In this document: positions 417-7,893 of the stretch, piece by piece
Layout of the letters: each line of letters starts with the position of its first letter
How positions within the stretch are numbered: position 1 is the first letter of the stretch
IMG/VR virus record: IMGVR_UViG_3300020473_002208
Coordinates: 1-40,554 of that record
DNA length: 40,554 bases
Direction: 5' to 3' (one strand)
Source of the DNA: a virus
Made by a program: the position numbers and the translations under genes
Notes under the pieces: generated by a model
Told to the model about the DNA's origin: nothing
Database searches by the model: none
The model's input: only the letters and a program-made list of their open reading frames with translations

Positions 417-1994
417 TTACAACAAATGCGATAAGCACCGCCCGAGCGAAGCGCCAAGAATTGGAGGCACGGCATTACCAACTTGTGTGTACTGAGGTAC
501 TTCGAACTTCCTCATTTGTCCACCTGTCGTAACCTTTGAGCGAAAAACAAAATCATCAGGAAATGACTGTATACGCGCCATTTCACGTACAGTTAACACC
601 CTCAGTTCATGATCATCATAGTGACAAGCATCATCAGGTATAGATAGGGCAGCAGGAGCTGGAGAATCAGCAATTAAAGCTTTCTGAGTTTGCTTTTTGG
701 TAGGGTGAGCCTTTAAATAATTTTCAAACTCTGTCTTACAATTAAACTGATATAGCTCACCATTCTCATGTAAATATCTATAGCTAGAAAGAGTACTCCA
801 GACATTTTCCTCTAATCTGTTTGATTCATTCTTAAGGATTTTAAATACAGCCTGAGTAATAGATCTTTCACCAATTTGCTGAAGCACTTGATATAACCTG
901 AACCTTCTTTTGACTACTGCACTATTATTTCTAAGTTCGTGGTTTAAAAGTTCAGTTCTGGCATTTAATGCAGTAAACCTTTGATTAAGGTGCTGCACGA
1001 ATGCTGATGGCTTTGATGGGTTATTGACCTTCAAATCATCAATGGCTTCCCGAACAGAAACTTCTGGAGAATTCACTAGCTCGGCTAAAAATGATCTCTC
1101 AAAGAAAGGCAAGTCACAACTCTTATTCGAATCATAATAATTTAAATGTCCAAACTCTAATTCCTCACCATGACTTTTAACTTTGGAGAAAAACTCAAGA
1201 GAGTGAGAGAACATATCTTTTTCGGTAGTGTTTAGTCTATCGGATAGTTGTTGAAGGTAATCTTCTCGAACTCCAATTAGTATGAAACGAGGCCTATTCT
1301 GGGCAACACCAGCTTTTCTAGCATTGACGTGGAGACAAACAGGTACATAACCAATTGATGCGAAAACTTTCGATACTTCGTACCACGCGTGAAAGCTCTT
1401 ACCTTCATCATCTTTAAAGGGGCGAAGAATACCTGTCACATTCTCCAATAAAACCAACTTGGGCAGAGTGAACTCCACAAAGCGAGCGAACTCCCATGGC
1501 AAAGTGTTTTTATCGCTATTTTTGTCTCTCTTTCCAGCCATGCTAAACGACTGACAGGGAGGGCCGCCTGAGACAAGATCTAATCCCCCATCTCTCCCAA
1601 AAGCAGACCTAAGTTGATGGACAAGTTTCGGAGAAGACGCAAGTAACCTGTTGAGCTCAATAATACTGCCAACAATTAGCTTACCGTCCAGAGTGTCTAT
1701 ATTTTGAGGAATATCTGAAAACCCATTCTGACCCACTTGAGGAAACTCAAAAGGATTCTCTCTCAAACGAGATTTCAAATTAGAGTGTCTACTACTGAGC
1801 CAAAATGCATTTTCAGATCGCTGATTTTGATTAGCTTTCTCTTCTAAGTCTTCGTTAAAAAAGTTATAAGCAAAAGTTTCCGCAGCCATTGGAGATAGCT
1901 CATTAGCAAGAACTAACTCAAAGCCTGCACTTTCTAACCCGAGCGATAAACCACCACAACCGGAAAACAACTCAATATGATTCAAATTACACAC
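417..1994 (-). CDS. DNA (cytosine-5-)-methyltransferase of a type II R-M system
   Basis: This enzyme transfers methyl from S-adenosylmethionine to C5 of cytosine in its target site and protects host DNA from the neighbouring endonuclease. The classical motifs appear in order: AdoMet loop FSGCGGLSLG (residues 10-19), catalytic PPCQS (145-149, Cys147), ENV (184-186), QNRPRF (232-237) and the C-terminal QVGNAVPP (504-511). At 525 residues it is longer than typical members. Extra length lies between motifs I and IV (about 45-140) and in the target-recognition region (about 250-460). It is divergent from the MvaI/BcnI-type endonuclease across a 409-bp spacer. That family cuts CCWGG or CCSGG, so a related target is a fair guess but is not shown by sequence. 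Confidence 0.93.
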   Translation of the reverse strand: MCNLNHIELFSGCGGLSLGLESAGFELVLANELSPMAAETFAYNFFNEDLEEKANQNQRSENAFWLSSRHSNLKSRLRENPFEFPQVGQNGFSDIPQNIDTLDGKLIVGSIIELNRLLASSPKLVHQLRSAFGRDGGLDLVSGGPPCQSFSMAGKRDKNSDKNTLPWEFARFVEFTLPKLVLLENVTGILRPFKDDEGKSFHAWYEVSKVFASIGYVPVCLHVNARKAGVAQNRPRFILIGVREDYLQQLSDRLNTTEKDMFSHSLEFFSKVKSHGEELEFGHLNYYDSNKSCDLPFFERSFLAELVNSPEVSVREAIDDLKVNNPSKPSAFVQHLNQRFTALNARTELLNHELRNNSAVVKRRFRLYQVLQQIGERSITQAVFKILKNESNRLEENVWSTLSSYRYLHENGELYQFNCKTEFENYLKAHPTKKQTQKALIADSPAPAALSIPDDACHYDDHELRVLTVREMARIQSFPDDFVFRSKVTTGGQMRKFEVPQYTQVGNAVPPILGASLGRCLSHLL

Positions 1995-2403: not shown

Positions 2404-3852
2404 ATGTCTGAAACAAACTACCCTAGTGAAAAAAGACTAAAGCAGTTAGTTAAACAAGTAAAAAAAGAACAGAGAGTCAAGATACATCAAGCGTATGACC
2501 TTATAAGTCAATCACTTGGTCACTCAAGCTGGCGAGAGCTAAAACCAATAATCGAACTCCACTGGAAAACTCAAATTCCATCCCCTCAGGCATCTTTGAA
2601 TTTTATTAATGATGAAGATGTAACTTTATCAGATGATGAGATTAATGATATCGACAAAGAGCGAAGTGTCGAGTTTGATAAATCAGTAAAAGAACTAGTT
2701 GAAAAAAACAAAATACAACTAGCTCGGTTGGGGGTTGAATACTCTATATTTGAACCGACTTTGACGGGCCTAAAAAAATCAATTCTCGATGCAACACAGC
2801 CGGTTCGAACTCATTTTGAATTAGAGAATTTTCATTATTATTATTCTCAAAGCCAAGGCTCAGAAAATAAAGTCGTTAAGACTGCATATTTGCTAACGGC
2901 TGATCACACTATCCCCTCTAGAGCTAGCTTTTATCGCCCTAAGACCAAGAAAGGTGATCCACGTATGTGGTTTCGTAACTTAGGGCAACTAGCGAATGCA
3001 GGGGATCTGGTAGCGATAATCATTTTTGACGAAGAGCCATATTTAATAAACATCTCTGATTGTGTCATTAGCGAGGAATTAGAAAACTTACGTAGTCCTA
3101 TTGGTAAGTTACTCAAGGCCTATGTTGATTCTGACAGTTCAATTGCTGATGAGTTATTGGGCAAGTTAAAAGCCTTAGCAATTAAGCCCTTCAAGGCTCT
3201 AAGAAAGGGTGATACTGCAATAGGCTATACGTTGGAGACGCTTTTAGGTATTGAAGCTAACTCTAGTAAGCTACCAGATTACAAAGGTATTGAACTTAAA
3301 GCGGGTAGAGGTGGTAAGAACCGTTCAAACTTATTCGCCCAAGTTGCAAAGTGGGATATAAGTCCTTGTCAAAAAAGTGCGGAAATTCTTGATAAATATG
3401 GTTACCAACGAGAGGATGACTTTAAGCTTTATTGTACGGTTAGTACACAGAAATCGAACTCTCAAGGTTTGTACTTCAAATATGACAAGTCAAATGATCA
3501 ACTTCAGGAATGGCATGACAACGGAGAATTAGTAGCCGTCTGGCCTGGTCATATTCTCCGAGAACGGCTGCTTGAGAAGCATGCAGAAACATTTTGGATT
3601 GAAGCTGATAGCTATGTCAAAGACGGTATAGAGCACTTTCAATTAAAGAGTGTTATCCATACTAAAAAGCCCTTGGCGTCTCAATTATTACCACTTCTTG
3701 AAAATGGTGTAATTACTATGGACCACCTAATAAAAAGGGATGGTAAAAATAATCGCGTTAGCGAAAAAGGACCACTATTTAAGATTGATAAAAAGAACTT
3801 AAATCTATTGTTTCCAGAACCGGTTAAATACTCACTCAACGATAATGTATAA
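2404..3852 (+). CDS. MvaI/BcnI-family type II restriction endonuclease
   Basis: This is likely the cutting half of the R-M pair. The region around residues 274-313 (GYTLETLLGIEANSS, then LPDYKGIELKAGRGG) matches the conserved core of the MvaI/BcnI endonuclease family. The PD-ExK-type site would be Asp292, Glu297 and Lys299, with Glu278 nearby. Family members are compact monomers cutting CCWGG (MvaI) or CCSGG (BcnI). At 482 residues this one is about twice their size. The N-terminal 50 residues (KRLKQLVKQVK, then LGHSSWRELK) resemble a small helical domain seen in other accessory proteins, and residues 100-260 are unassigned. ATG at 2404 follows a weak ribosome site (AGGAACAGT). Confidence 0.85.
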   Translation: MSETNYPSEKRLKQLVKQVKKEQRVKIHQAYDLISQSLGHSSWRELKPIIELHWKTQIPSPQASLNFINDEDVTLSDDEINDIDKERSVEFDKSVKELVEKNKIQLARLGVEYSIFEPTLTGLKKSILDATQPVRTHFELENFHYYYSQSQGSENKVVKTAYLLTADHTIPSRASFYRPKTKKGDPRMWFRNLGQLANAGDLVAIIIFDEEPYLINISDCVISEELENLRSPIGKLLKAYVDSDSSIADELLGKLKALAIKPFKALRKGDTAIGYTLETLLGIEANSSKLPDYKGIELKAGRGGKNRSNLFAQVAKWDISPCQKSAEILDKYGYQREDDFKLYCTVSTQKSNSQGLYFKYDKSNDQLQEWHDNGELVAVWPGHILRERLLEKHAETFWIEADSYVKDGIEHFQLKSVIHTKKPLASQLLPLLENGVITMDHLIKRDGKNNRVSEKGPLFKIDKKNLNLLFPEPVKYSLNDNV

Positions 3853-3909
3853 ATTAATTTTTAATATACAGCTAAGAGTAAAATAGGAATTCGTTAGTTG
3901 GTTCTGAGA

Positions 3910-4028
3910 TAACTATCAGCAAAATTTCTCCACTTCACCTGACAGACAGCTATGAGCAGCGCTTCGCTGTACTTGAGCGAAGCGAAGTCGGCAAGCGTTG
4001 CGAATCACCATTAAATGCTTTGTTATGT
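3910..4028 (-). other. Candidate integron attC site (second cassette)
   Basis: Directly after the HEPN-like gene, the minus strand reads TAACAAAGCA and, about 105 bases on, TGCTGATAGTTA. These complementary ends match the layout of integron attC sites. Between them lies a strong hairpin (GCTTCGCT / AGCGAAGC) and the stretch ATTCGCAACGCTTGCC, typical of longer attC sites. The match is less perfect than for the site at 4993, so this copy may be decayed. Confidence 0.5.
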
Positions 4029-4031
4029 ATA

Positions 4032-4832
4032 TCAGAGGGTTGCGATGATCTCTTTTATTCGGCTTTCCCCCAAAAATGCAAAGTGCATCTCCAGCCAATT
4101 TTTTATTTTTCTTGCCTTTTTATGTTCATCAGCAAGCTTCATAAATTGAATGAATTGTTCATCCTTAGACAAACAAGCAATTAACTCGTTAGCTGACAGA
4201 GATGAAGCCTGTTCAACATAAATTTTATCAACAGCACGGACGCTCTTGATTACCATAGTGATCAACGTAGACACATCCTTAAGAGTAAACTTTCCAGTGC
4301 CGTAATTGGATAGAGCTTCATTAACATCAAAGTGATGGTAACTATCGAATATTGCTTGAGAATCGTCTTTTAAGTGTTGTATCGACGCTTTCGACAACTT
4401 CGCATTAGATGTTTTAGCATGAACGACTTTGTTTCTCCAGTGGCATAGAAGCTCAACTAAAATGATCCATTCAGGCTTTACTTCTGGTGTAGCTTCAAGA
4501 AATCGAACGACTCTGTCCGCTTTAGAGTCGGTAGGATTTTTTTTAATATTAAAGTTCATGTCTTCGTTTAGCCATAAATCGGAATTGCTAACCTTAGACA
4601 AGTATTCAAACAAACTTTCAACAGAGTAGACAATTGCAGACTTTACAGCAAAGCGCCTAGAGTTCATTGATGACTGTTTTGCATTTCCGGGTTTCCAAGA
4701 AATATTTAAAGTTGAAGGTGCTGTCGTTTCTTCTGTCATTGTCGACAACGCAACTGCTATTGTATTCATACAATGAACACTATGACCTACATCGTCTAAG
4801 AACTCTTTTAAATGATTGCTTTCAATTGACAT
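4032..4832 (-). CDS. HEPN-like protein in an integron cassette
   Basis: This 266-residue, mostly helical protein has no signal peptide or membrane segment. The pattern ELLCHWRNKVVHAK (residues 127-140) contains R133-x4-H138, the R-x4-6-H signature of HEPN domains, many of which are RNases in toxin-antitoxin and abortive-infection systems. Family assignment is by motif only. The gene ends 3 bases from the attC-like site and begins 16 bases after the CCA end of a tRNA-like gene on the same strand, so both sit in one cassette. No strong ribosome site precedes ATG 4832. It may be a stand-alone HEPN toxin or a harmless HEPN scaffold protein. Confidence 0.6.
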   Translation of the reverse strand: MSIESNHLKEFLDDVGHSVHCMNTIAVALSTMTEETTAPSTLNISWKPGNAKQSSMNSRRFAVKSAIVYSVESLFEYLSKVSNSDLWLNEDMNFNIKKNPTDSKADRVVRFLEATPEVKPEWIILVELLCHWRNKVVHAKTSNAKLSKASIQHLKDDSQAIFDSYHHFDVNEALSNYGTGKFTLKDVSTLITMVIKSVRAVDKIYVEQASSLSANELIACLSKDEQFIQFMKLADEHKKARKIKNWLEMHFAFLGESRIKEIIATL

Positions 4833-4848
4833 GGGGTATCTTGAAGTG

Positions 4849-4937
4849 TGGTGGCACCAGCAGGAATCGAACCTACGTCGTCGGGTTTAACTAGAAATTT
4901 TAGTAGCCGCCGTCTTTCCGCATTAGACCATAGTGCC
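4849..4937 (-). tRNA. tRNA-like gene with an anomalous anticodon arm
   Basis: Read on minus, the ends form a 7-bp acceptor stem (GGCACTA / TGGTGCC, one G-U pair) followed by A and an encoded CCA. The T arm is canonical (GTAGG, loop TTCGATT, CCTGC) and the D arm pairs GTCT with AGAC. The 34 bases between D stem and T arm do not form a standard anticodon stem. If class II spacing (5-7-5 plus a 17-base variable arm) is imposed, the loop is TACTAAA with CTA (4901-4903) as anticodon. The stem would then have two mismatches, and position 33 is A instead of U. It is therefore a degenerate tRNA, an odd suppressor-type tRNA or a tRNA mimic. It lies between an attC site and the HEPN-like gene. Confidence 0.55.
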
Positions 4938-4992
4938 GAAGTGAACAATATGCAATCTTACACTGTTGTCAATGATTTACGCAATCGATATA

Positions 4993-5049
4993 CATAACGT
5001 CCGCATAAACCAGCCAACGAAAATTTGCCGCTTTAATGCGTTTGTTATG
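4993..5049 (-). other. Integron attC recombination site (first cassette)
   Basis: This 57-bp imperfect palindrome has arms CATAAC/GTTATG and CGCAT/ATGCG, with AAA/TTA between them. The minus strand begins TAACAAACGCATTAAAG and ends ATGCGGACGTTATG. Those are the layout and core (GTTATG) of short attC sites recognised by integron integrases as folded single strands. It overlaps the end of the MtlR-like gene, as expected for a cassette. Confidence 0.8.
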
Positions 5050-5551
5050 TTTTTTTACTCAATGGCCTAAGAGGTGTAACTCGGTTGTAAGATTGTCTCT
5101 TATGCATAATTATCATAGAAAAGAATAAAATGAACGCCTCACGCCAACCTAATTCTTGAATGAAGTCTTCTAGCTCTTTACCTTGAGCTAGTGCCTTCCA
5201 TATTTCTGGCGAATATTTCATTATGTTTTTTATTCGGTGCTGGAATTTAACGGTTTTAAAGCTTTGCTCAGAAACATCATGTGCACATTTATTTCGAAGT
5301 TGACGTAATTGATTATATATTTTTAATTCTCCTTCGGTAATCACACCAGTGCGGTAAGCTAAAATTATTTTTGTTTCAAAATCGGCTCGGTGTAATAGTT
5401 CATCTTTCTTATCAAGCTTTGGTAATAATCTATGCTCTAAATGTTTATAAAGCTCATTTTCAACGTGTGCTGCTGTTATTAAAACCAAAGCTCTATCACT
5501 TTCTAATTTTAGCTCTTGAATAATTGGTTTTGCCTTTTCCGGGTCGAACAT
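5045..5551 (-). CDS. MtlR-like (HEPN-related) cassette protein
   Basis: This 168-residue helical protein resembles the MtlR/MltR family: LESDRALVLITAAHVENEL (16-34), then ILAYRTGVITEGELK (63-77), then LRQLRNKCAHD (82-92). The last contains R86-x4-H91, like the HEPN signature. MtlR was named as a repressor of mannitol use, but distant members occur in mobile DNA and their role is unclear. I do not infer mannitol control here. The gene is the first cassette next to the broken integrase gene and overlaps its attC by a few bases. The C-terminus ends in a basic stretch (RVTPLRPLSKKT). Confidence 0.65.
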   Translation of the reverse strand: MFDPEKAKPIIQELKLESDRALVLITAAHVENELYKHLEHRLLPKLDKKDELLHRADFETKIILAYRTGVITEGELKIYNQLRQLRNKCAHDVSEQSFKTVKFQHRIKNIMKYSPEIWKALAQGKELEDFIQELGWREAFILFFSMIIMHKRQSYNRVTPLRPLSKKT

Positions 5552-5784: not shown

Positions 5785-6539
5785 TTGCATGTCTTCAAAG
5801 GAATGATAACTCGCTTTTCTTATTTTAATTGCAACGCACACTACATGTTGACTCGACAGTATTCACTGAGGACGGTTAACCCTTACCTTAGTTTGATATC
5901 TAACTTCATACATTCTCATAATAAAAGACATCCCACTACTAAGGGCGATAACGCAGTGATTGTGTTTTTAGACTACTTAATTTTAAAAAGAAATATGTCG
6001 CCTAGAACGCAGGTGGCCGCATTAAATGCATTAGCGTTTTTGTAAAAACACATAGTAAAAGAAGAATTGTCGTTGGACTTAAATTTTTTCAAAAGCAATA
6101 GACATCCCAAATTGCCAGTCGCTATAGCTCCAGAAGAAGTTAAAGAAAAATGTCGTTTATGAAAAAACCTCTATTAATTAATTGCGGGATTAATGTACAG
6201 AAGCGGTTTAAGGGTAGTTGAGGCGGTGCAGCTCAGAGTGAAAGATACTGATTTTGACTATAGATGTATTCAAGTCTGGAATGGAAAAGGCAATTAACAT
6301 CGAATTGTAACACTTGCAAAAGCGTTGAAGGCTGCTTTAAAACAGTCGGGAATTACAAAGTTAGTTACACCACATATGTTCAAACACTCGTTCGCGACTC
6401 ATCTCTTGCCATCAGAAGCAGACATTCGCACAGTCCGAAGTCACTGGGTCATTCAGACGTTAAAACCAATCAGATTTATACTCATGCTTTACAGCAAGGC
6501 GAAAACAGTATTGTGAGCCCTTTGAGCAATATTTTCTAG
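5785..6539 (+). pseudogene. intI: Broken integron integrase gene (intI remnant)
   Basis: Fragments in consecutive frames together resemble an integron tyrosine recombinase. The N-terminal part reads YLSLISNFIHSHNKRHP, then MSPRTQVAALNALAFL. A TAA at 6043-6045 replaces the usual Tyr, and the same frame continues KHIVKEELSLDLNFF to LPVAIAPEEV. A middle part (YRSGLRVVEAVQLRVKDTD) carries the first catalytic Arg and stops at a second TAA after NGKGN. The catalytic box PHMFKHSFATHLL keeps the His but has Lys in place of the conserved Arg. A frameshift then leads to SLGHSDVKTNQIYTHALQQG with the Tyr. About 60-80 codons before the HSFATH box are missing, including where the IntI-specific insert should be. 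It cannot encode an active enzyme. Confidence 0.85.
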
Positions 6540-6726: not shown

Positions 6727-7893
6727 TTACACAACTATATTTGGTACTTGTGTCCAGCTTAGACTTTTTCCGTGTTTGGTATAAACCTTAGTCGACTTAC
6801 TATCTGAATGCCCCATACGTTTCTGAGGGTCTACTCCTTGAGCTTCAATTAGCCTTGCAGAAAGGCCGCGTATTTCGTGATAGGTCGGTCTTTCTGCCAA
6901 GGGTAGTGTGGAGTACAATCCTAACTTATCTCGAACTTTTGAAAACTCTCGACTGATATTTCGGCTTACAACCTGAGTCACATGCCTAACCTCTTTACTG
7001 ATAGGGTTTGAGTTGGTTTTTGGTAGCCGATGGACCACGAAAGGTGATGCGATATTGTCTCTGCTATCGTCCACTATTTTTTTGATAGTTTCATTGATGG
7101 GAATGATCACATGAGATGCTTCGCTTTTATGTGTTTTTTGACGATGTATCGCTAGTTCACCGTATATCAGCCCAGTATCATCCTGCTTAGGTGTGTCATA
7201 CCAAATGCAGCCACAACGACCACTTTCGGGCTTTCTAAGCTTGTACTCAATTCGGGAGATTTCCAGCACTGCGTGGGTTGTTTGCATTGTTAAATCCATA
7301 GCAGTTTTTAACCAGATAGGCGCCGCAGCTCTTATCTTTTCGAAGTGGGCTATATCTAGAGCCTTGCGCATTTTCGCTTCTTTTGGCTTTTTAATTTTAA
7401 GTGCGGCTGGGTTTGAATCCATCTCACCGATATCCTTGGCATAATCAAACACCAACTCTAAGAAGCTCAACTTTCTGTTGTACACATTATTACTGGCGCC
7501 ACTATGATAAGCGTCCATATATTCCGTTACATCAGCGAGTGAGATATCACTCCCTGACATTGTGAAAAAGGCCTTAATTCGCTGCGCATCATTTAGCCAA
7601 GTCGATCTTAGATTTTTACCCGGGTTCTTATCTTCTAACATTCGCTCAACAATTTGGTCTACTACGTCAGAAAAGCTGGTGGACGAATACCCCTCATCTA
7701 AGAGCTTGTCGAGTACCGTAGTACTGCGTTTGAGACGGTTGTACTCATTGGCGATAATAATTGCTTCAGCACGTACTTTGCTAATTACTTTACGCTTGCC
7801 ATTTACCAGCGAGAGGACATAGCCCTTTTTCTTATTGTGGTACAAAAAAGGGGGAAGATCCCGGTTCCTATGAATGCGTTTTCTTGGGGCCAT
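6727..7893 (-). CDS. int: Prophage integrase (tyrosine recombinase)
   Basis: This enzyme catalyses site-specific integration and excision of the prophage. The 388 residues comprise a basic N-terminal arm-binding region (1-60), a core-binding SAM-like domain (about 70-165) and a C-terminal catalytic domain. Catalytic residues visible are Arg214 (EISRIEYK), HEIR (His339, Arg342), His362 (RMGHSDSKST) and nucleophile Tyr371 (KVYTKHG). It is the last gene of the leftward early operon, one base after the excisionase stop, in the lambda xis-int arrangement. It lies at the prophage edge beside the putative attL. Confidence 0.93.
   Translation of the reverse strand: MAPRKRIHRNRDLPPFLYHNKKKGYVLSLVNGKRKVISKVRAEAIIIANEYNRLKRSTTVLDKLLDEGYSSTSFSDVVDQIVERMLEDKNPGKNLRSTWLNDAQRIKAFFTMSGSDISLADVTEYMDAYHSGASNNVYNRKLSFLELVFDYAKDIGEMDSNPAALKIKKPKEAKMRKALDIAHFEKIRAAAPIWLKTAMDLTMQTTHAVLEISRIEYKLRKPESGRCGCIWYDTPKQDDTGLIYGELAIHRQKTHKSEASHVIIPINETIKKIVDDSRDNIASPFVVHRLPKTNSNPISKEVRHVTQVVSRNISREFSKVRDKLGLYSTLPLAERPTYHEIRGLSARLIEAQGVDPQKRMGHSDSKSTKVYTKHGKSLSWTQVPNIVV

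Follow-up and report, generated by a model that had tools for sequence, protein, structure and literature searches.

The window analysed here is a 40.5-kb virus record (40,554 nt), the left part of which is bacterial. This part carries, in order, a restriction-modification gene pair, two minus-strand integron cassettes and the remains of an integron integrase, followed by a prophage with an integrase at 6727. Beside the cassette array are a C5 cytosine methyltransferase gene (417-1994, minus strand) and a gene for an MvaI/BcnI-type restriction enzyme (2404-3852, plus strand), which are a probable type II restriction-modification pair. The integron integrase is decayed and survives in fragments (5785-6539, plus strand) immediately left of the prophage, as an N-terminal SAM-like part at 5785-6042 (PF13495, E = 3e-13) and a C-terminal remnant at 6325-6513 (PF00589, E = 5e-7), both on the plus strand. 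The tyrosine integrase of the prophage is encoded at 6727-7893 (minus strand).

The second cassette is home to a tRNA-like RNA (4849-4937) and a gene for a 266-aa HEPN-fold protein, a putative RNase (4032-4832), both on the minus strand. A preliminary description of this DNA had placed attC-like sites on both sides of the pair. The site shared with the preceding cassette (4992-5050, minus strand) is clear, with inverted arms of 18 nt each (4992-5009 and 5033-5050) that are 78% complementary, while the putative attC at the 3' end of the cassette (about 3860-4031, minus strand; TAACAAAGC... right after the stop codon) is less certain, because the inverted repeats there are weak or short. The attC sites, of which the 3' one is weak, and the integron integrase nearby are those of an integron gene cassette. 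The first cassette (5045-5551, minus strand) specifies a different HEPN-like protein of 168 aa, with the motif R-N-K-C-A-H and weak matches to DUF4145 and Csx1/Csm6. It has no tRNA-like element, and so provides an internal contrast.

The tRNA-like RNA

The Rfam tRNA model matched the element (4852-4937, minus strand) at 42 bits (E = 1e-5 for the window), well above its gathering score of 29, and a covariance model of the family, R1, scored it at 82.4 bits, its sole match in the window. As first described, the acceptor and T arms are complete: the former (4937-4931 with 4859-4853) has 7 bp including one G-U, and the latter (4876-4860) has 5 bp including one U-G. The D arm lies at 4928-4912, and A73 (4852) is followed by the encoded CCA that had been reported (4851-4849). 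In its acceptor, D and T arms the RNA has the cloverleaf of a functional tRNA, and it departs from one in the combination of 5-bp anticodon stem, 7-nt loop and U33, as its loop is 20 nt long (4905-4886, minus strand; UACUAAAAUUUCUAGUUAAA). The view that a normal anticodon stem is missing was correct in sensing an abnormality, but misplaced it: a stem is present (4910-4906, GCGGC, with 4885-4881, CCCGA), with three Watson-Crick pairs in the window copy and five covarying pairs across the family, and the abnormal part is the loop.

With 20 nt instead of 7 between the halves of the anticodon stem, the RNA cannot be a decoding tRNA, and for the same reason ARAGORN called no tRNA over the window. 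The triplet CTA, which had been tentatively read at the anticodon place, is not an anticodon. The folding energy of the window copy was not unusual (z = 0.06), and the RNA is judged to be real because of conservation and covariation, not stability.

The HEPN protein

The start codon of the HEPN gene (ATG at 4832) follows the CCA after exactly 16 nt on the same strand, in agreement with the preliminary description, and this spacer (4833-4848, minus strand) is too short for a promoter or terminator. The R-x4-H signature noted earlier in the protein is the catalytic-type HEPN motif WRNKVVH (4419-4439, minus strand; R133/H138), which has the R-(polar)-x3-H pattern of the RNase type of the HEPN superfamily. 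The W, R, N and H of the W-R-N-x3-H motif are invariant in all of the related loci described below, including one with a frameshift.

An AlphaFold2 model of the protein (pLDDT 77.7) points to a HEPN helical bundle: the top 14 rows of a VIA-align search with it were all HEPN-type folds (Z 7.8-10.6), most of them annotated as HEPN or HEPN-MNT toxins, mainly MntA-HepT and HEPN-MNT, and the best unrelated row, among helical bundles, reached Z 6.5. Foldseek alone, run with the same model against the PDB, gave no significant match. At the sequence level, the best indication was a match to HEPN_RiboL-PSP (PF18735) of 16.6 bits, below the Pfam gathering cut-off of 28.4; the protein belongs to no Pfam, NCBIfam, PADLOC or PHROG family above cut-off, and no sequence match was found among PDB chains. 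Motif and predicted fold together suggest that it is likely an RNA-cutting HEPN enzyme.

Linkage of the RNA to the HEPN protein

Relatives were gathered by protein similarity alone, and the RNA was not used as a query. Searches of plasmids with tblastn yielded L001 (Pseudoalteromonas piscicida, frameshifted) and L043 (a plasmid of Sinorhizobium americanum), and one genome scan yielded L002 (Methylophaga), L003 (Pseudoalteromonas haloplanktis ATCC 14393), L004 (an Oceanospirillaceae MAG) and L005 (Thalassolituus). Profiles run against about 1,500 genomes, a part of them repeatedly, added L012, L014, L015, L016, L040, L041 and L045. The tRNA-like element was present on the same strand in all 14 HEPN loci (the window and 13 others), a count in which the closely related L002-L005 weigh less, and it lies 3-26 nt upstream of the HEPN start. 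Its anticodon loop is enlarged in every case, to 20-27 nt and in one locus to 37 nt. Since the RNA played no part in finding the loci, this constancy is not a selection effect. The proteins range down to about 17% identity (17-19%) with that of the window, and the hosts are Gamma- and Alphaproteobacteria, with the pair residing in integrons, plasmids and chromosomes.

HEPN loci without the tRNA-like leader were sought as evidence against a functional link between RNA and protein, and none of the 13 homologous loci lacked the element. Distances between the RNAs also followed those between the proteins, with a Mantel r of 0.91, or 0.75 when the near-identical L003-L005 were removed, a value reached by none of 10,000 permutations. 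The two sets of distances indicate that RNA and HEPN protein co-evolved and, as far as sequence comparison can tell, a functional tie between them is strongly supported. A full encoded CCA is found in nine of the 14 elements, and five are without it.

Several loci have features of their own. In L040 (1471-2921, minus strand) a single RNA precedes two tandem, overlapping and different HEPN genes of the same family, the first of them shorter (209 aa), and their products possibly form a heterodimer. In L001 (2883-3780) both RNA and motif are kept and the HEPN frame is split in two, through either decay or a sequencing error. On the Sinorhizobium plasmid, an ApeA-type HEPN gene (ApeA_NTD1 and HEPN_Apea; L043, 3926-5320) lies about 500 bp downstream of the RNA-HEPN pair, which suggests a defence neighbourhood.

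The pair was also considered as an integron-specific feature, and this was rejected because it also occurs outside integrons: L016 is flanked by purL and a transposase-like ORF, while L043 is on its plasmid. Integrons are thus a common vehicle for the RNA-HEPN pair and not a requirement. No relatives turned up when viral contigs were scanned with the HEPN protein, with each of two protein alignments or with a loop pattern; in plasmids, blastn and tblastn matched solely P. piscicida and Sinorhizobium; tblastn in phages with L012 as query, and distant blastn in E. coli genomes with L014, gave no match.

Covariation and specificity

When the 14 sequences were aligned to the model, which biases the alignment towards it, base pairing was found in 92.4% of cells compared with 72.7% in shuffles, changes on both sides of a pair occurred in 18 of the 21 cloverleaf pairs, and the covariation score was 0.659, against 0.250 for shuffles (reached by 0 of 500) and at most 0.149 for slid controls. 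A plain MAFFT alignment of the first ten sequences gave the same covariation picture. The anticodon stem varies in step, one of its pairs appearing as G-C, U-A, C-G or A-U, and the elbow-forming bases of the T-loop and the GG of the D-loop are retained in nearly all loci.

The RNA is also specific to this protein family, at least among its closer members. In sets of 294 and 162 genomes (456 together), R1 produced three matches above 60 bits, all at known HEPN loci (G003, G369 and G002), with ordinary tRNAs (74-77 nt) reaching at most 59.4 bits. The divergent members L043, L045 and L041 score 42.7, 37.8 and 21.3 bits and would hide among ordinary tRNAs, so that this RNA-first test covers the closer group only. 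The nearest ordinary tRNAs are a mixture of Arg-CCT, Gly-TCC, Glu and Gln, and for this reason no clear parent tRNA can be named.

That a tRNA gene, whether functional, suppressor-type or decaying, came to lie before a HEPN gene by chance is most improbable. The Rfam tRNA score above gathering would suit such an origin, as would the behaviour of ARAGORN, which forces two of the homologs into tRNAs, but a loop of 20-37 nt in all 14 loci, covarying stems and strict linkage to one protein family speak against it, and no ordinary tRNA in the genomes searched exceeded 59.4 bits with the model. The decaying suppressor-type tRNA that had been offered as an alternative is contradicted in particular by the conservation of the enlarged loop and the covariation of the stems. 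A tRNA with a small anticodon-loop intron was rejected as well: the loops have anywhere between 13 and 30 additional nt, the element has no splicing partner, and in the CGAUUA subfamily no simple excision would leave a U at position 33.

The two force-fitted calls of ARAGORN are a tRNA-Asn(att) at 1396-1485 of L012 and a tRNA-Ser(act) at 1398-1487 of L014, and similar odd tRNA calls in public annotations may be members of the RNA-HEPN family.

The loop is the most distinctive part of the RNA. It is rich in A+U (58-90%, versus 28-54% for the remainder of the RNA), and at some loci contains a small hairpin. In most gammaproteobacterial loci it starts with UACUAA or CGAUUA and ends with AAA; the loop ends are conserved within subfamilies, and the middle is variable. 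Two explanations take the loop as their starting point. An intact tRNA body exposing a large, AU-rich loop could be a sensor or bait, a sacrificial target of phage or other tRNA-attacking enzymes whose cleavage or modification activates the HEPN effector, as in a guard system, and the mobile-element settings and the ApeA-type defence gene downstream in L043 would be in keeping with this; the loop sequence is, however, just loosely conserved between subfamilies, and such a role is considered quite unlikely. Alternatively, the variable centre of the loop might pair with a target RNA and so guide HEPN cleavage. The conserved ends and varying middle would fit, and AbiF/Cas13 is an example of how a HEPN-RNA pair can turn into a guided one (PMC12373285), but the loops are short and AU-rich, and a guide function appears very unlikely.

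Predicted promoter and transcript

A sigma-70-like promoter (TTGACA-16-TATTGT; 4945-4972, minus strand) with 10 of 12 matches precedes the element in the window, its -10 box ending 7 nt before the first base of the RNA. The count of promoter-like sites in the surrounding region was not above chance. When all 14 loci were scored for a promoter at the placement that would start the transcript on the first base of the element, the result was above all 500 shuffles, which were single-base shuffles, L012, L040 and L045 scoring poorly. No terminator was found between the RNA and the HEPN gene in a search of 4700-5150. Given the promoter placement, the absence of a terminator there and a gap of 3-26 nt without room for a promoter, the RNA would form the extreme 5' end of the HEPN transcript, and the sequences make it likely that the RNA and the HEPN gene are co-transcribed from the first base of the mimic.

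The start codon follows the element after 3 nt in L015 and 5 nt in L041, a gap so short that ribosome binding and an intact tRNA fold would be mutually exclusive, unless the RNA is cut off. These findings bear on the possibility of a purely cis-acting leader, in which the mimic, when bound or cut by the HEPN protein or by a tRNA-binding factor of the host, affects only the translation or stability of the mRNA that carries it, with no antitoxin role. The action of ThrRS on the thrS operator is a model for such control. A leader of this kind would account for the constant position of the element, within 3-26 nt of the start codon and with neither terminator nor promoter between, and for the two loci in which the intact fold leaves no room for a ribosome site. 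Against this, the conserved elbow, acceptor stem and CCA (nine of 14) exceed the needs of a local operator, and a free RNA could serve both roles. A leader acting solely in cis is on balance unlikely.

Discussion

The explanation favoured here, and regarded as somewhat probable, is that the HEPN RNase is held in check through binding to the tRNA mimic in its own leader, the RNA acting as antitoxin or decoy and also in translational autoregulation. The two-part module would consist of a HEPN ribonuclease and its cognate tRNA-mimic RNA, encoded in the 5' leader. As the promoter placement suggests, transcription would begin on the first base of the mimic and continue into the HEPN gene. By alignment, the mimic has kept the acceptor, D and T arms and elbow bases of a tRNA, with a mostly AU-rich loop of 20-37 nt replacing the anticodon loop. 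The HEPN protein, which has relatives that often cleave tRNA in the anticodon loop, would recognise tRNA and bind this counterfeit of it. A bound mimic in the leader would hide the start codon 3-26 nt downstream and limit HEPN synthesis, and a mimic cut out of the leader could serve as an RNA antitoxin or decoy that keeps the RNase inactive. If transcription stopped, or the mimic were destroyed, for example by phage attack, the HEPN protein would be released to cut cellular RNA, most likely tRNA, and growth would halt. RNA excess is typical of type III antitoxins, and as there is no terminator between RNA and gene, a similar excess would here need processing. Also weighing against the proposal are the anticodon stem of the window copy, with its three Watson-Crick pairs, the ordinary folding energy of that copy, and the five elements in which the encoded CCA is incomplete.

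The proposal has precedents. The HEPN RNase AbiF is bound and neutralised by an ncRNA encoded upstream of its gene (PMC12373285), PrrC and RloC are HEPN anticodon nucleases (PMC3710099), and it has been suggested that the tRNA-like domain of YrlA inhibits an anticodon nuclease by competition (PMC7790460). The choice of tRNA as the probable target is made by analogy with other HEPN families.

Among known systems, AbiF/AbiD (Abi_2; RCd22; RF03085) shares a HEPN RNase, a structured cognate ncRNA directly upstream, as found in all 14 loci here, and a small two-part module in mobile DNA. The RNA described here differs in being a tRNA cloverleaf with a giant anticodon loop, and its function is inferred; no Abi_2 domain was matched by Pfam in the HEPN protein at the thresholds used, and the abiF RNA motif (RF03085) was absent from cmscan matches at E<=5 for 4780-5060. 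The module works most like AbiF with its ncRNA, yet cannot be classed there. Type III toxin-antitoxin systems (ToxIN, CptIN, TenpIN) likewise have an RNA ahead of, co-transcribed with and on the same strand as the toxin gene. However, the protein here has a HEPN and not a ToxN fold (no ToxN/CptN/TenpN-type toxin was matched by Pfam or PADLOC), the RNA is a single tRNA-like unit and not a tandem repeat, and there is no terminator between RNA and gene. HEPN-MNT systems (HepT/MntA) share the HEPN fold and R-x4-H motif and include the nearest solved structures (Z about 10), but no MNT gene is present in the cassette, where an RNA takes the place of the protein antitoxin; the ORFs adjoining the HEPN gene, which encode the HEPN-like protein and the MvaI/BcnI-type restriction enzyme, include no MNT nucleotidyltransferase.

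PrrC, RloC and Cas13a are HEPN nucleases that cut tRNA anticodon loops. They share the HEPN catalytic motif, and by analogy a tRNA-directed activity is plausible here, but the present module has no ABC ATPase, restriction partner or CRISPR, and carries its own tRNA mimic. In the YrlA Y-RNA with Rsr, and in the thrS operator, a tRNA-like RNA also lies beside or leads the gene of a linked protein; these proteins are not HEPN, and neither RNA combines a giant anticodon loop with a complete cloverleaf. A HEPN family from an integron cassette is represented by PDB 3jrt (Anantharaman et al. 2013), but its similarity by VIA-align was just Z 5.3, there was no sequence match to PDB chains, and no RNA partner for that family was found in the part of the source consulted. 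Translation-inactive tRNA-like RNAs of Edaphobacter, guessed to be parts of transposons or toxin-antitoxin systems (review of non-canonical tRNAs, PMC7609411), differ in architecture.

No description of a tRNA-like RNA paired with a HEPN protein was found in the open literature searched, most subscription papers lying outside it. There is a fair chance that the module is a new class rather than a variant of HEPN RNases with cognate RNAs. The fuller claim is put forward tentatively, as an idea a little short of probable: HEPN toxins or defence systems of this type would form a new class, in which control lies with a complete tRNA mimic whose giant anticodon loop might, in addition, detect attacks by phages on tRNA. 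Many copies may have gone unnoticed, since standard annotation either overlooks the RNA or labels it a tRNA or pseudo-tRNA.

It has been proposed that Cas13 descends from HEPN RNases which, like AbiF, have an RNA dedicated to them (PMC12373285). If the favoured explanation is true, a second, unrelated HEPN family with its own tRNA mimic would mean that HEPN nucleases came under the control of RNA on more than one occasion, and the cell's own nuclease would be restrained by a counterfeit of its substrate. The RNA-HEPN pair is small and self-contained; it would be a compact module spread by integrons and plasmids, and would give direct access to the question of how anticodon nucleases select their tRNAs.
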